A stretch of DNA of 25,680 nucleotides from a virus: positions 1-25,680 of the IMG/VR virus record IMGVR_UViG_3300046028_004529. One strand, 5' to 3'. A model generated the notes under the pieces. The model made no database searches and was not told the origin of the DNA. It saw only the letters and a list, made by a program, of their open reading frames with translations. Shown here one piece after another: positions 16,536 through 21,852 of this stretch (position 1 is the stretch's first letter; every line of letters starts with the position of its first letter). The position numbers and the translations under genes were made by a program.

Positions 16536-17456
16536 TTAATCGTCACTTGCTAGTTTAGCGAAGTATGACAGGGATTCCTCATCGTCATCGAAGTTTACAT
16601 CTTGTTTAGGTGTTGGAACTGATGCGCGAGGCGCTGATGCTTGTACTGGTGATGAACCAATATCTTCATCTAGATCAACATTTTCTGCAGGCTTAACTGG
16701 TGCTACACCTGCTGAAAGAACCATAGTAAGTTTCTTCTTCAAATCATCATATGACTTAAAGTTCTTAGCATCCAAGAATGCTGTCAATGAATGTTGTTGA
16801 CTCCAAATCTTCTCAATGATTGAATCGTCATTAGAAATAGGACTTGGTGATTCAAATTCAGACTTATCATAATTACGATAGCCTTCAACATTACGAATCT
16901 TTAATTTGAAGTTTGCACCTGTGTCAAAGTCAAAAACATTAACTGGTTTCTCATCTTCAAACTGAGGATCAGCCATGTCTTTAATCTTATCCCAAATTTT
17001 CTTGCCGAATTTAAACAAGAAAACCTTGCCTTCATTATCTGGGCGAGATGGGTCTTTAACAACAAGAATGTTAGCGTAATATGTTAATTTACGCTTTTGT
17101 TTGCGAGCAACTTCTTTATTTGCTTCTGAACCTGAGTTCCACAATTCAGTATTGAGTTCTGAAACTGGGTCTTGTTTACCGATAGTGGTCAAAGAGTTCT
17201 CAATGTACCATTTACCTGTAGGTCCCTGAAATCCATGATTCCAAACACGAACAAACGGCAAGTCTTCACCTTGAGGTGGAGCCAAGAAGCGAATAACAGC
17301 ATAACCATTACCTGCTTTATCTACTTCTGGTTGCCAGAAGCGATCGTCTGATTTTTTAGAGTCGGATTGGGGATTTGCGATCTTTTCAACTTCTTTCATT
17401 AATGAATCGAAGCCGCCGCGAGATTTGCGTAGATCTGCTAGTGAAGTGTAAGCCAT
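16536..17456 (-). CDS. gp32: Single-stranded DNA-binding protein gp32
   Basis: The protein has 306 residues (T4 gp32: 301). It has the basic N-terminal LAST-like region (LADLRKSRGG), then the core: RFWQPEVDKAGNGYAVIRFL, FVRVWNHGFQGPTGKWY, LTYYANILVVKDPSRPDNEG and FKFGKKIWDKI. It ends with an acidic tail (FDDDEESLSYFAKLASDD). gp32 coats single-stranded DNA in replication, recombination and repair, and recruits gp59. The zinc site of T4 gp32 (His plus three Cys) is absent: H74 remains but the protein contains no cysteine. The leader has a tandem 11-bp repeat that may take part in translational autoregulation. Confidence 0.95.
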   Translation of the reverse strand: MAYTSLADLRKSRGGFDSLMKEVEKIANPQSDSKKSDDRFWQPEVDKAGNGYAVIRFLAPPQGEDLPFVRVWNHGFQGPTGKWYIENSLTTIGKQDPVSELNTELWNSGSEANKEVARKQKRKLTYYANILVVKDPSRPDNEGKVFLFKFGKKIWDKIKDMADPQFEDEKPVNVFDFDTGANFKLKIRNVEGYRNYDKSEFESPSPISNDDSIIEKIWSQQHSLTAFLDAKNFKSYDDLKKKLTMVLSAGVAPVKPAENVDLDEDIGSSPVQASAPRASVPTPKQDVNFDDDEESLSYFAKLASDD

Positions 17457-17700: not shown

Positions 17701-17937
17701 TTAAACATCTTTTGTTTTTCTTGCCTGGACTTTCATATAAGGCCAAGACAACATCCTCTTACTAATTTCTTTTTGACTATGCGCAACTTTAATTAAATAC
17801 CTTTGAGTTTCGGTAATTGCATTTTGTTGTTGCATTAATATTTCTTGCAGTATAGCCACATTTTCTTCTAATTTTTTAATTTTCTTATTAGAGTCAACTA
17901 ATTCTTCGTCTAAAGATTGCATCGTATTTTTCCACAT
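17701..17937 (-). CDS. Small coiled-coil protein of unknown function
   Basis: The protein has 78 residues (73 if the second Met at 17922 is used). Residues about 8-60 show heptad spacing of Leu and Ile (LDEELVDSNKKIKKLEENVA, ILQEILMQQQNAI), which predicts a coiled coil. The C-terminal RMLSWPYMKVQARK is basic with an aromatic patch. Similar short coiled-coil proteins with a WPY-like end lie beside gp59 in aquatic T4-like phages, from memory. It overlaps the gp59 gene by 44 bases, which suggests translational coupling with the replication genes. The function is unknown. Confidence 0.6.
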   Translation of the reverse strand: MWKNTMQSLDEELVDSNKKIKKLEENVAILQEILMQQQNAITETQRYLIKVAHSQKEISKRMLSWPYMKVQARKTKDV

Positions 17938-18496
17938 CTATAACTAGAAATGGTTTATATTTTTTAATGAGTCTGGAAATATCAGGCCACACTATTGTGT
18001 CATTAATTTCAGAATCAAATTTATTAATAAACCCTGTAAGCTTTTCCAAGATAACAAGGGTCTCAATACCAATTGTTTTTCTTAAATATGCCTTTATTAT
18101 ATATGGATGCTGACCTTTAGATACTACGAAAATAGACTTAGTATCTATACCAGAATCTTCACATTCTTGAATTAAATTGTCCAAATCTTGTGAGAAAGCA
18201 TACGATAAACTCTCAATTTTCTTTTTCCATAGTGTATATCGTTGTCCCGCTTCAATATCGAACATTCCTCCCCAACGATCACCTGACACAAAATTAGCAA
18301 CTAGGAAATTAGCAACTTCTTCATCGGTATAGTTCTTCGATATCTTTTTAATTGAAAATAAGTCTGTACGTTTAGCAAATGCTTGTCTACTTGCACGAAC
18401 TTTTCCTCGTTGTTTAATTACATCATAAGCATCTGTTGTAAAATGCAACTTTAGTGCAAGGTACATTTTATAAACTGAAAATTCATCCATTATCAT
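17894..18496 (-). CDS. gp59: Helicase loader gp59
   Basis: The protein has 200 residues (T4 gp59: 217). The N-terminal EFSVYKMYLALKLHFT, then FLVANFVSGDRWGGMFD and the C-terminal FINKFDSEINDTIVWPDI and IKKYKPFL match the gp59 family. gp59 loads the gp41 helicase onto gp32-coated forked DNA. The neighbours gp33 and gp32 keep the T4 order 33-59-32, with two small genes inserted before gp32. The start overlaps the gp33 stop (ATGA), so the two are translationally coupled. Confidence 0.88.
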   Translation of the reverse strand: MIMDEFSVYKMYLALKLHFTTDAYDVIKQRGKVRASRQAFAKRTDLFSIKKISKNYTDEEVANFLVANFVSGDRWGGMFDIEAGQRYTLWKKKIESLSYAFSQDLDNLIQECEDSGIDTKSIFVVSKGQHPYIIKAYLRKTIGIETLVILEKLTGFINKFDSEINDTIVWPDISRLIKKYKPFLVIDVEKYDAIFRRRIS

Positions 18497-18771
18497 AGTG
18501 GCAATTTGCCCCTTGGTCTCATATAATTTTGATCTTCTGCTTCGTTTTGAATTTTATCTTTAAGAGATTGATTAATTAGTTTAGTCACTGATTCTACATC
18601 AATATCTATATCATTGCAGTATCCAATTACTGCATCCATATAGCTAATTGATTCTTGTAATACTTTTTCTTCAATGTAGAGCGAAAATTCATTTGGCGAT
18701 CTAAATCTCTTAGTAATAATTAGAGCATCGGTTAATGTCTCTTCTGTGTTTGGGTCTAACATTTCTATCAT
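18493..18771 (-). CDS. gp33: Late promoter transcription coactivator gp33
   Basis: The protein has 92 residues (T4 gp33: 112). It is acidic and helical: NEFSLYIEEKVLQESISYMDAV is followed by YCNDIDIDVESVTKLINQSLKDKI and a final RPRGKLPL. The length, position directly before gp59 and helical pattern fit gp33. gp33 binds the RNA polymerase beta-flap and tethers it to the sliding clamp for late transcription. This fits the TATAAATA promoters in the window. It overlaps both neighbours by four bases, so gp33 is coupled to the bilin reductase gene just upstream. Confidence 0.78.
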   Translation of the reverse strand: MIEMLDPNTEETLTDALIITKRFRSPNEFSLYIEEKVLQESISYMDAVIGYCNDIDIDVESVTKLINQSLKDKIQNEAEDQNYMRPRGKLPL

Positions 18772-19442
18772 TCGATTTCTGGAAATAAGATTTCATCCAT
18801 AAAGTTTCTAAACACCTTTTCGTCGATGCCTAGGTTAATCATCATTGCTGGGGTATGTGGGTTCATCTTTTGAAACTTACAATAGTGATTATATCTCTCT
18901 TTGTATGATTCGCCGATTTTCTCCACTTGTCCTACATTATATAGGTAAACGTGTAAACTTTCAATAGCTAGATCGGCTAATTTGTCCAATTCTTCTTCTT
19001 CAGATATATTACCTGCCGCAATCATACCGGGACTAAAAATTTGAACAGCCCAGTCAGGCAACACCCTTGGCTTGTTCCATTCTAACTTAGATGAACGATC
19101 AACAAACCAATTGTATACATCGGAGTTTCCTGTTCTGGAAAAATCATGGAACGCACCTGTAATTTTGTTAGCTCCGCACACCACGTCAAATCCAAAGATT
19201 GGAGTTGGATCATCAAACTCTGGAAAAATTGTCATGTGCATAACCCAGATCTTTTTTGCTTCACGTGCATCTACAATTTCAATGTGCGCTCTACGATAAT
19301 TACGAGAAGTAAAAATATAATTTTCCCAAAGGTATCCGTTGCCTTGTTCTGCAGTATATTTTAATTCGTCATCTGTGTGTTGTTCCAATGTCTCAAGAAT
19401 ATTTTGAGACAGAGGAATCATTTTATCCCATACTAAAGACAT
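18768..19442 (-). CDS. pcyX: Ferredoxin-dependent bilin reductase, PcyX/PcyA type
   Basis: The protein has 224 residues, the usual size for this family. Core positions are visible: Glu55 in HIEIV, His69 in VMHMTIFP and Asp86 in PIFGFDVVCG. By my recall these match PcyA Glu76, His88 and Asp105; the His-Asp spacing of 17 is identical. PebA and PebS have Asn in place of this His, so this is nearer PcyA/PcyX. The C-terminal motif QKMNPHTP has Pro195 where PcyA has Asp in its QNDKT motif, a feature that bears on product choice. Such enzymes reduce biliverdin with host ferredoxin; phage PcyX makes phycoerythrobilin. The heme oxygenase gene ends two bases upstream. A ribosome site AAGGA lies about 15 bases before the ATG. 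Confidence 0.88.
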   Translation of the reverse strand: MSLVWDKMIPLSQNILETLEQHTDDELKYTAEQGNGYLWENYIFTSRNYRRAHIEIVDAREAKKIWVMHMTIFPEFDDPTPIFGFDVVCGANKITGAFHDFSRTGNSDVYNWFVDRSSKLEWNKPRVLPDWAVQIFSPGMIAAGNISEEEELDKLADLAIESLHVYLYNVGQVEKIGESYKERYNHYCKFQKMNPHTPAMMINLGIDEKVFRNFMDEILFPEIE

Positions 19443-19444
19443 TA

Positions 19445-19975
19445 TTAACTATATTCCTTAATGATATTAATATTATGATCAAATGCAACAATTGCTTCGG
19501 GCCCCATGGCATCATTGATTTTAGAACGTAATTCTCGAATCAATTCTGGCATATTTTCAAATTTATACATTGCACCCGATCCTGGTACTAATGTTGCTAA
19601 TTGCTGGCCGCCAAATAGATCGCCCATATGTCTAACATAAACGTGCGCCATTGCAGATTCTGCATTGTCAATACTCGACAAATAATTTATATAATTCATC
19701 GTAGATTCTTTAATAGTATATGCAGTTGGTAGGTCTGTTGATAATTCGTTAAAATCTTGTATTATTGCCGTTGTTCTTTTTAATCCCGGCATTGTAGTAA
19801 AAAGATTGAACGTTATTCCTAGACCTTCTTCTATAACATGATAGACTGCTGCTAGTTGAAACAAATAGTCTGTATATTTTTCTGTATCTACATTGTTTTC
19901 AAAAATAGATTTAATGAATGGCAAATTTTCTGCTTCATTATGTTTTTCTTGTGTTTGTTCTTTTAAGGTTGGCAT
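19445..19975 (-). CDS. ho1: Heme oxygenase (biliverdin-producing)
   Basis: The protein has 176 residues, shorter than cyanobacterial HO1 (about 240). The proximal heme ligand is His12 in TQEKHNEAENLPF. The distal-helix signature HVYVRHMGDLFGGQQL has Gly118, Asp119, Gly122 and Gly123 in the positions of the GDLSGGQ motif. The enzyme opens heme to biliverdin, iron and CO using electrons from ferredoxin. It should supply the bilin reductase encoded just downstream. The C-terminal membrane or tail region of longer family members is missing, so the enzyme is probably soluble. The ATG lies two bases after the stop of the membrane-protein gene and lacks a clear ribosome site, which suggests coupled translation. 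Confidence 0.93.
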   Translation of the reverse strand: MPTLKEQTQEKHNEAENLPFIKSIFENNVDTEKYTDYLFQLAAVYHVIEEGLGITFNLFTTMPGLKRTTAIIQDFNELSTDLPTAYTIKESTMNYINYLSSIDNAESAMAHVYVRHMGDLFGGQQLATLVPGSGAMYKFENMPELIRELRSKINDAMGPEAIVAFDHNINIIKEYS

Positions 19976-19977
19976 AA

Positions 19978-20283
19978 TTATTTAAATAAAATTAAAGCTA
20001 ATAGAGAAGCATGGATAATAAATCCTGCACCGATTGTTACAATGTGAAGCATATCTTTAAGAATAACTGCTCTCACAAATAGTAATGAAAGGCCTGCCCA
20101 GATAAACATAATAAGATCTACGGGAGGCATTTTATCTGATAATCCAGACATGATTGAAATCATTGTTGGTATAGTTGCGGCATGAATAAGGACAATTCCT
20201 ACCCATGAAATTGTTTCTGCGGTTGCAACAGTTAATGTTGTTTTGCAGTAATTAATAACGTCTTGTAATGTGGGATATTTCAT
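19978..20283 (-). CDS. Small membrane protein of unknown function, next to heme oxygenase
   Basis: The protein has 101 residues. Three hydrophobic segments are visible: about 24-46 (ISWVGIVLIHAATIPTMISIM), 53-70 (PPVDLIMFIWAGLSLLFV) and 79-100 (LHIVTIGAGFIIHASLLALIL). The short N-terminal part is soluble (TLQDVINYCKTTL). His33, His80 and His91 lie in or near membrane segments, but I see no basis for heme binding. I have the impression that similar proteins occur in pelagic T4-like phages but know no function. Its gene is coupled to heme oxygenase (two-base gap) and lies three bases after the SleB-like hydrolase, so it may belong to lysis or to the tetrapyrrole genes. Confidence 0.7.
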   Translation of the reverse strand: MKYPTLQDVINYCKTTLTVATAETISWVGIVLIHAATIPTMISIMSGLSDKMPPVDLIMFIWAGLSLLFVRAVILKDMLHIVTIGAGFIIHASLLALILFK

Positions 20284-20286
20284 AAT

Positions 20287-20817
20287 TTATCTGTAGAAAA
20301 TGTGGTTGCCAATTTTTGCGATTTGTTGACGTTTCCATCCAGGGGAAACGTATGTTGCATGATAATAAAGTGCATCGGTCAATCCTGCTAACCGGAATCC
20401 TTCAAGTAAAACTTTCTTAGCTACTTCATACGATTCTTTATAAGCAGATTGATGAATTGGTTTTGTCTTTGTAGAAGTTTCGCAATACCAACTGAATTGG
20501 CAGATCACCTTTTCATATACTATGTTCTTTTGATATACTACTTTGCAAATATCATTGGGGAACCCGGCATTTGCTGCTCTATTAAGAGTGACTTGTGCTA
20601 CAGCAACCTTGCCCTCAAATGGTTCACTTCTTGCTTCGTGGTAAATATTTTTTGCTAAACAGTCTAATTGTTGTTCCCTAACAGCAACTGTTGCAGTAGT
20701 GTCGTCAAAATTAGTTTGTCTTAAGTTTTGAAGTTTTAATGTCGTTACTTGTGTAAAAATTGAAATTAAAAATATTGCGGATACTGCTACTAAAAATGAT
20801 TGTGTATATGTTTTCAT
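20287..20817 (-). CDS. Cell wall hydrolase, SleB-like, with N-terminal membrane anchor
   Basis: The protein has 176 residues. An N-terminal hydrophobic segment (SFLVAVSAIFLISIFTQV, about 7-24) is a signal anchor or signal peptide. The catalytic domain from residue 52 follows the SleB/Hydrolase_2 pattern: CLAKNIYHEARSEPFEGKVA with the catalytic Glu61, VAQVTLNRA, and CQFSWYCE. The YYHATYVSPGWKR segment near the C-terminus is also typical. The family cleaves the peptidoglycan glycan strand as a lytic transglycosylase or glucosaminidase-like enzyme. The anchor suggests Sec-dependent export, like SAR endolysins. It opens the minus-strand cluster that runs to gp32 and starts just downstream of the tmRNA gene. 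Confidence 0.85.
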   Translation of the reverse strand: MKTYTQSFLVAVSAIFLISIFTQVTTLKLQNLRQTNFDDTTATVAVREQQLDCLAKNIYHEARSEPFEGKVAVAQVTLNRAANAGFPNDICKVVYQKNIVYEKVICQFSWYCETSTKTKPIHQSAYKESYEVAKKVLLEGFRLAGLTDALYYHATYVSPGWKRQQIAKIGNHIFYR

Positions 20818-20840
20818 CTGTTTGTAGATTAGTTAATAAA

Positions 20841-21155
20841 ATGGTTAGTTATTCTGTTACGAGGAAACTAACCGAAACCCTAGTCAGCGTTTAGGCTGCC
20901 AATGCGAAACGTGAGTCGTTTGCGTTTACTTTTTTTGCTTCTACGACCGGGTTACCCCAATCCTACGGGTTTCACATTCCCGTGCTGTCCACTCTGTTAC
21001 TCTTTGCCCTGTCGAAACTATGCACCCCCATCAAAAGCACACCATCTCTACTTAAAGTTTATCAGCAAGCCGACTCACAGTATGCTTTTGGTGGAGGTGG
21101 GGGGATTCGCACCCCCGTCCAGAACCTGTTTCTCTTTGCTTCATACAGCAATATT
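20841..21155 (-). ncRNA. ssrA: Circularly permuted two-piece tmRNA
   Basis: Minus strand, 5' to 3': an acceptor piece ends with a 5-bp T-stem (GGGGG/CCCCC, 21100-21104 and 21112-21116, 7-nt loop), the strand CACCTCC (21093-21099), A and CCA (21089-21091). After a 59-nt intervening segment, the coding piece begins GGGGGTG (21023-21029), which pairs with CACCTCC over 7 bp with one G-U. The 10 bases next to each acceptor strand (21080-21089 and 21033-21042) also pair, extending the helix in the precursor. The tag frame (20891-20938, resume codon GCA by inference) encodes AKKVNANDSRFALAA then TAA. tmRNA rescues stalled ribosomes and adds a degradation tag. The acceptor part before the coding part marks a permuted gene. 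Confidence 0.92.
20843..20873 (-). terminator. 3' hairpin of the tmRNA coding piece
   Basis: GGTTAGTT and AACTAACC form an 8-bp stem with a 15-nt loop after the tag stop codon. ATTTTATT follows on the minus strand. It may be the 3' end structure of the coding RNA or a weak terminator before the SleB-like gene. Confidence 0.6.
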
Positions 21156-21161
21156 TTATAT

Positions 21162-21189
21162 ATTATAACAGATTTTACGAAAAAGTCAA
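21162..21189 (-). promoter_or_regulatory. Sigma70-type promoter of the tmRNA gene
   Basis: TTGACT (21184-21189), a 16-base spacer and a perfect TATAAT (21162-21167) on the minus strand. Transcription would start near 21155, just before the acceptor piece. The -35 box lies inside the 3' end of the exonuclease gene. A host-type promoter would make the tmRNA early or constitutive rather than late. Confidence 0.8.
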
Positions 21190-21852
21190 TAAATTGTTGT
21201 CCATTTCGTAAGAATCTCGGCATTTTAGCAGTTCTTTGACCCAATTATCACGTTTTTCGACGAAAACTTGTGGATTTTCGTCTTCTACGGCGATAAGAAT
21301 GACCAATTTACTGATTGGGATACCCGTTCTTTCTTCATACATGATAGCATATGCCGCACATTGCATGAAGTAGCTATGAATCCATTCTTTTTTCTTCAAT
21401 TTGCCCGAAGTTTTAAAGTCGATGACTGCAAGTTTGCCTTCGTATTCACCGATGCAGTCAACTGTGCCTGCTAATCTTAGATGATCCGAGTATAATTTTT
21501 GTTCTTGCACATGAATGTTGTTAATTTTGTGCAATTCTGGCAAAATACTTGTGAAAAGTTCCTTTTGGAAGAAGGACATTTCCTCTATGGCGTTAGTATT
21601 GTTTAAATAATTCTCAATATACGCGTGTAACTTAGTTCCTCGTGTCGTAGCAGCTTTAGAAATTTTATTAGCTGCATCCTCACCGACTCTTTTACGCCAT
21701 TCCATGATGCCCTGTTTGCTTTGGGCACCGAGAATGGTTGTAATTGAAGGATATTGTTTGCCGTTAGGAGTTTTATAAAATCGTACACCATCTTCTCGTG
21801 TAATTTGTTCTAACGTATCAAATTTGTTCACATTAACATGATTAAATATCAT
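21175..21852 (-). CDS. PD-(D/E)XK exonuclease (MGME1-like)
   Basis: The protein has 225 residues. The nuclease core is visible: TTRGTKLHAYIE with His76 at 69-80, AGTVDCIG with Asp132, and VIDFKTSGK with Asp145 and Lys147. FMQCAAYAIMYEE gives the helix with the conserved Gln and Tyr. This matches the Cas4/RecB-type exonucleases of the MGME1-like group that are common in aquatic T4-like phages. The likely job is processing single-stranded or flap ends in replication or recombination. No Fe-S cysteine cluster is present. The gene is followed directly by the tmRNA, whose -35 box overlaps its last codons. Confidence 0.85.
   Translation of the reverse strand: MIFNHVNVNKFDTLEQITREDGVRFYKTPNGKQYPSITTILGAQSKQGIMEWRKRVGEDAANKISKAATTRGTKLHAYIENYLNNTNAIEEMSFFQKELFTSILPELHKINNIHVQEQKLYSDHLRLAGTVDCIGEYEGKLAVIDFKTSGKLKKKEWIHSYFMQCAAYAIMYEERTGIPISKLVILIAVEDENPQVFVEKRDNWVKELLKCRDSYEMDNNLLTFS

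Follow-up and report, generated by a model that had tools for sequence, protein, structure and literature searches.

A 25,680-base virus record (the window, by which we mean the whole stretch of DNA analysed) comes from a T4-like phage with baseplate, tail, gp32, gp59, gp33, PhoH and other core genes, and contains adjacent genes for a heme oxygenase (HO) and a ferredoxin-dependent bilin reductase (FDBR). Our preferred reading, to which we assign a probability of about 0.68, is that the two genes are an auxiliary metabolic cassette for bilin synthesis in the infected cell, with phycocyanobilin (PCB) the likelier product, and that the bilin is what is selected while iron is a second benefit. Aquatic phages with hemO-pcyX and hemO-pcyA cassettes, of two genes and of three, have been published from marine and freshwater settings (PMC11480375), and the window pair is a further member of these hemO-FDBR cassettes. 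A reading of this DNA made from sequence alone had described the pair as a two-gene version; this form was already published for marine phages (PMC11480375) and is common in the relatives considered here. The reason for phycobilin synthesis by phages of non-photosynthetic bacteria is a stated open question (PMC11480375).

The heme oxygenase and bilin reductase genes

The two genes and the codons of their key residues are as follows.

18768..19442, minus strand: ferredoxin-dependent bilin reductase, Glu type, 224 aa (PF05996, E 2.7e-17, above the curated cut-off)
19185..19187, minus strand: FDBR Asp86 codon (PcyA Asp105), invariant in 50 aligned sequences
19236..19238, minus strand: FDBR His69 codon (PcyA His88), invariant in 50 aligned sequences
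19278..19280, minus strand: FDBR Glu55 codon (PcyA Glu76; Asp in PcyX), placed by alignment
19445..19975, minus strand: heme oxygenase, 176 aa (PF01126, E 1.1e-20, above the curated cut-off; best match of the model HmuO)
19607..19624, minus strand: HO GDLFGG distal-helix motif, residues 118-123; D119, G122 and G123 invariant in 48 aligned sequences
19940..19942, minus strand: HO His12 codon (proximal heme ligand position), invariant in 48 aligned sequences

The open reading frames at 19445-19975 and 18768-19442 are separated by 2 bases (19443-19444), which confirms the adjacency and two-base gap described in the sequence-only reading, and the residues that it had singled out in both proteins were all correct. 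HO has the family profile, the fold, the proximal His and the distal GDxxGG helix of heme oxygenases. Its PDB matches were heme oxygenases, and its AlphaFold model (mean pLDDT 95.9) was structurally closest to HmuO, with a TM of 0.84 by query length. The protein is short, at 176 aa compared to 207-264 aa in the best PDB matches; His12 and GDLFGG are retained.

The reductase has the family profile (PF05996) and fold of bilin reductases, and its Glu55, His69 and Asp86 align with Glu76, His88 and Asp105 of Synechocystis PcyA, so that the PcyA triad is complete. The best PDB match was PcyX 5owg (E 3.7e-47), followed by PcyA (1.4e-12), and over its whole sequence the protein resembles PcyX more than cyanobacterial PcyA. 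The best structural matches of the AlphaFold model (mean pLDDT 94.5) were PcyA 2g18 and 2d1e. As dN/dS against close relatives was ~0.05-0.09 and the match to 5owg was strong, the FDBR is not a chance match. The family, structure and selection tests indicate that HO and FDBR are two real enzymes, and conservation together with dN/dS ruled out decay or chance origin of the pair. One could still regard the genes as functionless passengers, as it is hard to see what they would do in a non-photosynthetic host, but the low dN/dS, the intact residues and hundreds of conserved pairs already contradict this idea, and we give it a negligible chance. Judging from sequence and structure, both enzymes are probably active, in agreement with the earlier prediction of an active pair in a T4-like phage; families, PDB matches, models and selection all favour it. 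HO is predicted to open host heme to biliverdin IXalpha, freeing Fe(II) and CO, and FDBR would transfer four electrons to biliverdin, the donor presumably being host ferredoxin.

Two phage reductase clades and the likely product

A reductase tree, which the sequence-only reading had proposed as a check, placed the window FDBR among phage bilin reductases. In this tree (81 sequences, Bradyrhizobium and CB_2 PcyA left out) the phage FDBRs formed a pair of sister clades, one carrying Asp and the other Glu at position 55, far removed from other PcyA and separate from both the cyanobacterial and the alphaproteobacterial PcyA clades. The Asp clade, comprising the characterised PcyX 5owg, the FDBR of Pelagibacter phage Mosig EXVC030M and many others, had moderate support (86/80), and the Glu clade, two members of which have Gln, contained the window FDBR (96/83*). 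Position 55 split the clades without overlap, with Asp in all 34 rows of the Asp clade. Because the window FDBR lies outside the clade of characterised PcyX, has Glu instead of the PcyX Asp55 and is separate from the PcyA clades, it is best named a Glu-type phage FDBR. Of the earlier label, PcyX/PcyA-type, the assignment to the bilin reductases holds; the protein is not inside PcyX and belongs to a sister clade that keeps the PcyA Glu. The two FDBRs with Gln at position 55 (L060 and L080) resemble the PcyA E76Q mutant (PDB 3i95), and their product may differ.

If the triad decides, a Glu-type phage FDBR would work like PcyA. Glu76 is PcyA-specific, is required for 18-vinyl reduction and is missing from PcyX (PMC10151467), and one freshwater phage has an FDBR that lacks the PcyX Asp55 and yields PCB in vitro (PMC11480375). 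On these grounds, and because the window enzyme keeps the PcyA triad in a clade that is sister to PcyX, PCB appears a likelier product than phycoerythrobilin, and the pigment probably differs from that of the known enzyme, PcyX.

The product is unsafe to read from one residue. Ledermann in 2018 reportedly changed the PcyX Asp back to Glu, and PcyA activity was not obtained. The same cassette might contain an FDBR that makes phycoerythrobilin or another bilin as PcyX does, with Glu not decisive. The overall closeness to PcyX and the sister relationship of the phage clades, far from other PcyA, agree with such a product, as does the view that FDBR structure/function relationships resist reliable prediction, which leaves products poorly predictable from sequence (PMC13193486). 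We nevertheless consider this alternative unlikely, given the complete Glu/Asp split between the clades and the PCB made by a phage FDBR without Asp55 (PMC11480375).

Two contigs carry one HO followed by two tandem FDBRs (L110:5288-6669 and L083:5289-6663), and both also have a 5-ALA synthase gene. In L110 the first FDBR is Asp-type and the second Glu-type; the tandem arrangement of the two contigs might point to a pathway with two products or two steps.

A collection of genomes was scanned for bacteria that might have supplied the FDBR, and no donor was identified. Three matches of 37-39% were in environmental MAG contigs, two of them with phage-like neighbours, and the others were one fragment and distant genes of the Falsiroseomonas/Roseomonas type. 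The complete Glu-His-Asp triad occurs in PcyA-like FDBRs of Falsiroseomonas, Roseomonas and a related Acetobacteraceae MAG (L041-L043, L045, L046).

Genomic place, host and exchange of the heme oxygenase

The features surrounding the pair are listed below.

16536..17456, minus strand: gp32 single-stranded DNA binding protein (PF08804, E 1e-47)
17894..18496, minus strand: gp59 helicase loader (phrog_269, E 1.1e-63), 4-base overlap with gp33
18493..18771, minus strand: gp33 late-transcription coactivator (PF16805, E 7e-22), 4-base overlap with the FDBR gene end
19978..20283, minus strand: 101-aa hydrophobic protein, directly 5' of HO, kept in relatives
20287..20817, minus strand: cell-wall hydrolase, Hydrolase_2 (PF07486, E 1.2e-25)
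20837..21203, minus strand: permuted tmRNA, tag ANDSRFALAA (ARAGORN; Rfam RF04321, RF01850)
21162..21189, minus strand: sigma-70-like site TTGACT-16-TATAAT before the tmRNA, pattern match only

The genes run in the order Hydrolase_2, 101-aa protein, HO, FDBR, gp33, gp59, a 78-aa ORF and gp32, and all junctions from Hydrolase_2 to gp59 are 2-3-base gaps or 4-base overlaps. The 101-aa protein is possibly holin-like; its best named homologue (44%) is in Methylophilales phage Melnitz, with a glycoside hydrolase family 108 gene close by. As the run is tightly spaced and includes lysis genes and gp33-gp59, joint expression during infection is probable, and we picture the cassette as co-expressed with these neighbours in a non-cyanobacterial, probably proteobacterial, host. 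Two matches to the T4 late-promoter motif TATAAATA were both distant from the cassette and below the chance number, and this candidate was rejected.

The order HO-FDBR-gp33-gp59-gp32 is kept, as far as contigs extend, in relatives with 55-93% FDBR identity, most of which also have Hydrolase_2 and the 101-aa gene. The pair therefore sits between the tmRNA and lysis genes on one side and gp33-gp59-gp32 on the other. Melnitz has PhoH, nuclease, tmRNA, gp33, gp59 and gp32 in the same order as the window, and its tmRNA and gp33 are not separated by the four genes that lie there in the window; the backbone of Pelagibacter phage HTVC008M also resembles that of the window. The window baseplate protein was nearest to those of HTVC008M (38%) and Melnitz (36%), with cyanophages at 35%. 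Since Melnitz and HTVC008M share backbone and baseplate kinship with the window, and Melnitz that of the 101-aa gene as well, the HO-FDBR pair is cargo that occupies a definable site, and the window phage is related to phages of streamlined heterotrophs. A DNA search for close named phages matched core genes alone, nearly all at 60-80% identity.

The tmRNA matches a betaproteobacterial tmRNA model (95.5 bits), and the sequence-only reading had taken the tmRNA as a pointer to the host. Melnitz infects Methylophilales yet bears an alphaproteobacterial-type tmRNA (PMC9004378); a tmRNA is therefore a poor host marker, and this argument was given up. A phylum scan of 398 genomes matched mostly the short conserved tRNA-like core and was likewise set aside for host assignment. 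Kinship with Melnitz and HTVC008M, along with the betaproteobacterial model match, makes a proteobacterial host likely. The host is probably a non-cyanobacterial freshwater bacterium, a habitat that we assume from many of the IMG sample series and a parallel in the literature. Tags vary among relatives (e.g. L003, L005 and L029), including ANDSRFALAA, ANDSQFALAA, ANDELFALAA, ANDEQFALAA and ANDDYFYQDLKLAA, and some lack the usual LAA end (ANDNSYRMVA in L055 and ANDSQFRIAA in L009). Melnitz already provides an example of a two-piece phage tmRNA placed immediately before the late-transcription coactivator (PMC9004378).

Most genes flanking the cassette are 79-94% identical in DNA between the window and relative L005, with one small gene at 73%, compared to 62% for HO, falling to 55-64% across the gene body. 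In the HO tree the window joins L060/L024/L026 (99/92*), whereas in the FDBR tree it joins L002/L008/L010/L012/L019 (100/100*). The drop in HO identity and the discordant trees point to local HO replacement in the cassette, and the simplest reading is that HO was swapped between otherwise near-identical phages, with both neighbours staying similar. In L101 an Asp-type FDBR is combined with a Glu-clade-type HO, which looks like a second case of HO exchange.

Possible purpose of the bilin and comparison with known systems

An FDBR-alignment scan found FDBR relatives in at least 597 confirmed viral stretches. With an FDBR motif as bait, the matches listed comprised 100 Glu-type and 118 Asp-type loci, of which 94 and 109, respectively, had HO no more than 200 bases away. 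With HO as bait, FDBR was directly downstream in 71 of the 78 loci with room for it, a sample biased towards the closest relatives of the window. This near-constant pairing favours the reduced bilin, over iron alone, as the selected trait. The payoff might instead be iron and heme removal: HO would free Fe(II), which could serve, for instance, 2OG-Fe(II) oxygenases of the phage, and FDBR would only clear biliverdin. Mosig and L049 have genes for 2OG-Fe(II) oxygenases close to the pair, the remaining 7 of the 78 loci in the same biased sample have HO without adjacent FDBR, and iron supply has been discussed for such cassettes (PMC11480375). However, the 71 paired loci and strong purifying selection on FDBR argue against this explanation, simple clearing leaves the two residue-defined clades and the tandem FDBRs unexplained, and the annotated genes of the window yielded no 2OG oxygenase. 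We regard it as improbable, and in our choice the bilin would be the selected product and iron release a secondary gain.

A phytochrome-type chromophore and a redox agent, both also suggested in the sequence-only reading, and another ligand are candidate roles for the bilin. In E. coli, phytochrome Cph1 becomes loaded with PCB made by a phage cassette (PMC11480375), and the phage could in this way supply host phytochrome-like photoreceptors and alter light signalling; with no phytochrome in 29 related phage records, we think this specific role rather unlikely. The photosystem, phycobilisome, phytochrome and [2Fe-2S] ferredoxin families had no match in the window, in line with the earlier statement that it has no photosystem or phycobilisome genes. 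In 36 related records there were no photosystem proteins and no phycobilisome proteins above the cut-off, and among the phages compared a [2Fe-2S] ferredoxin was found in Mosig only. As had also been stated, no 5-ALA synthase is seen among the annotated genes of the window, itself a genome fragment. The enzyme was present in 7 of 23 longer relatives and in none of the T4-like window relatives examined, including a 119-kb contig.

A gene directly upstream of HO in L049 (4861-5469) has a PHROG label of ferrochelatase, and its Mosig counterpart gave tblastn matches in many Glu-clade relatives. The label is doubtful because there is no Pfam match, and the gene was dropped as heme-pathway evidence. 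Some relatives from larger phages, L069 (4700-5472) among them, have Hsp20 and ClpS genes ahead of the pair, an order that recalls the pmoC-phages with Hsp20 (PMC7674155).

More broadly, and as a tentative proposal that we hold to be somewhat doubtful, Glu-type FDBRs may be a separate and very common phage family in heterotrophic aquatic bacteria, making PCB or another bilin as signal, cofactor or redox agent without phycobilisomes, with the adjacent HO repeatedly exchanged under host-specific pressure. The clean split of two clades at one active-site residue gives the phycobilin question a testable form, as do the contigs with tandem reductases, the near-constant pairing of HO and FDBR, and the fixed genomic place, for which Melnitz, without the pair, is a natural comparison phage.

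Melnitz and HTVC008M, whose baseplate proteins (36-38%) rank them with the closest cultured phages, share with the window a backbone of PhoH, nuclease, tmRNA (Melnitz), gp33, gp59 and gp32, and neither was matched in the FDBR search. Cyanobacterial and cyanophage PcyA have the same Glu-His-Asp triad and the same fold as the window FDBR, which is only ~22-30% identical to cyanophage PcyA and on a distant tree branch; no photosystem genes were seen in the related phage records analysed. The CB_2 cassette, compared by description (hemO, a PCB-forming pcyA and valaS; PMC11480375), is like the window pair an HO with an FDBR in an aquatic phage; both FDBRs are without the PcyX-type Asp55, and a cyanobacterial host is expected for neither. 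CB_2 is a 527-kb phage with 5-ALA synthase, in contrast to the window fragment and the T4-like relatives examined, in which none is seen. In the marine hemO-pcyX cassettes (PcyX_EBK42635, PDB 5owg; Mosig) HO is likewise directly upstream of FDBR, the phages are also those of non-cyanobacteria, and the active-site His and Asp are kept. The window FDBR is 37% identical to each of these two proteins, differs from them in having Glu instead of Asp at position 55, and falls in the separate sister clade. The pair is also located differently, between a 2OG oxygenase gene and neck genes in Mosig and between lysis genes and gp33 in the window.
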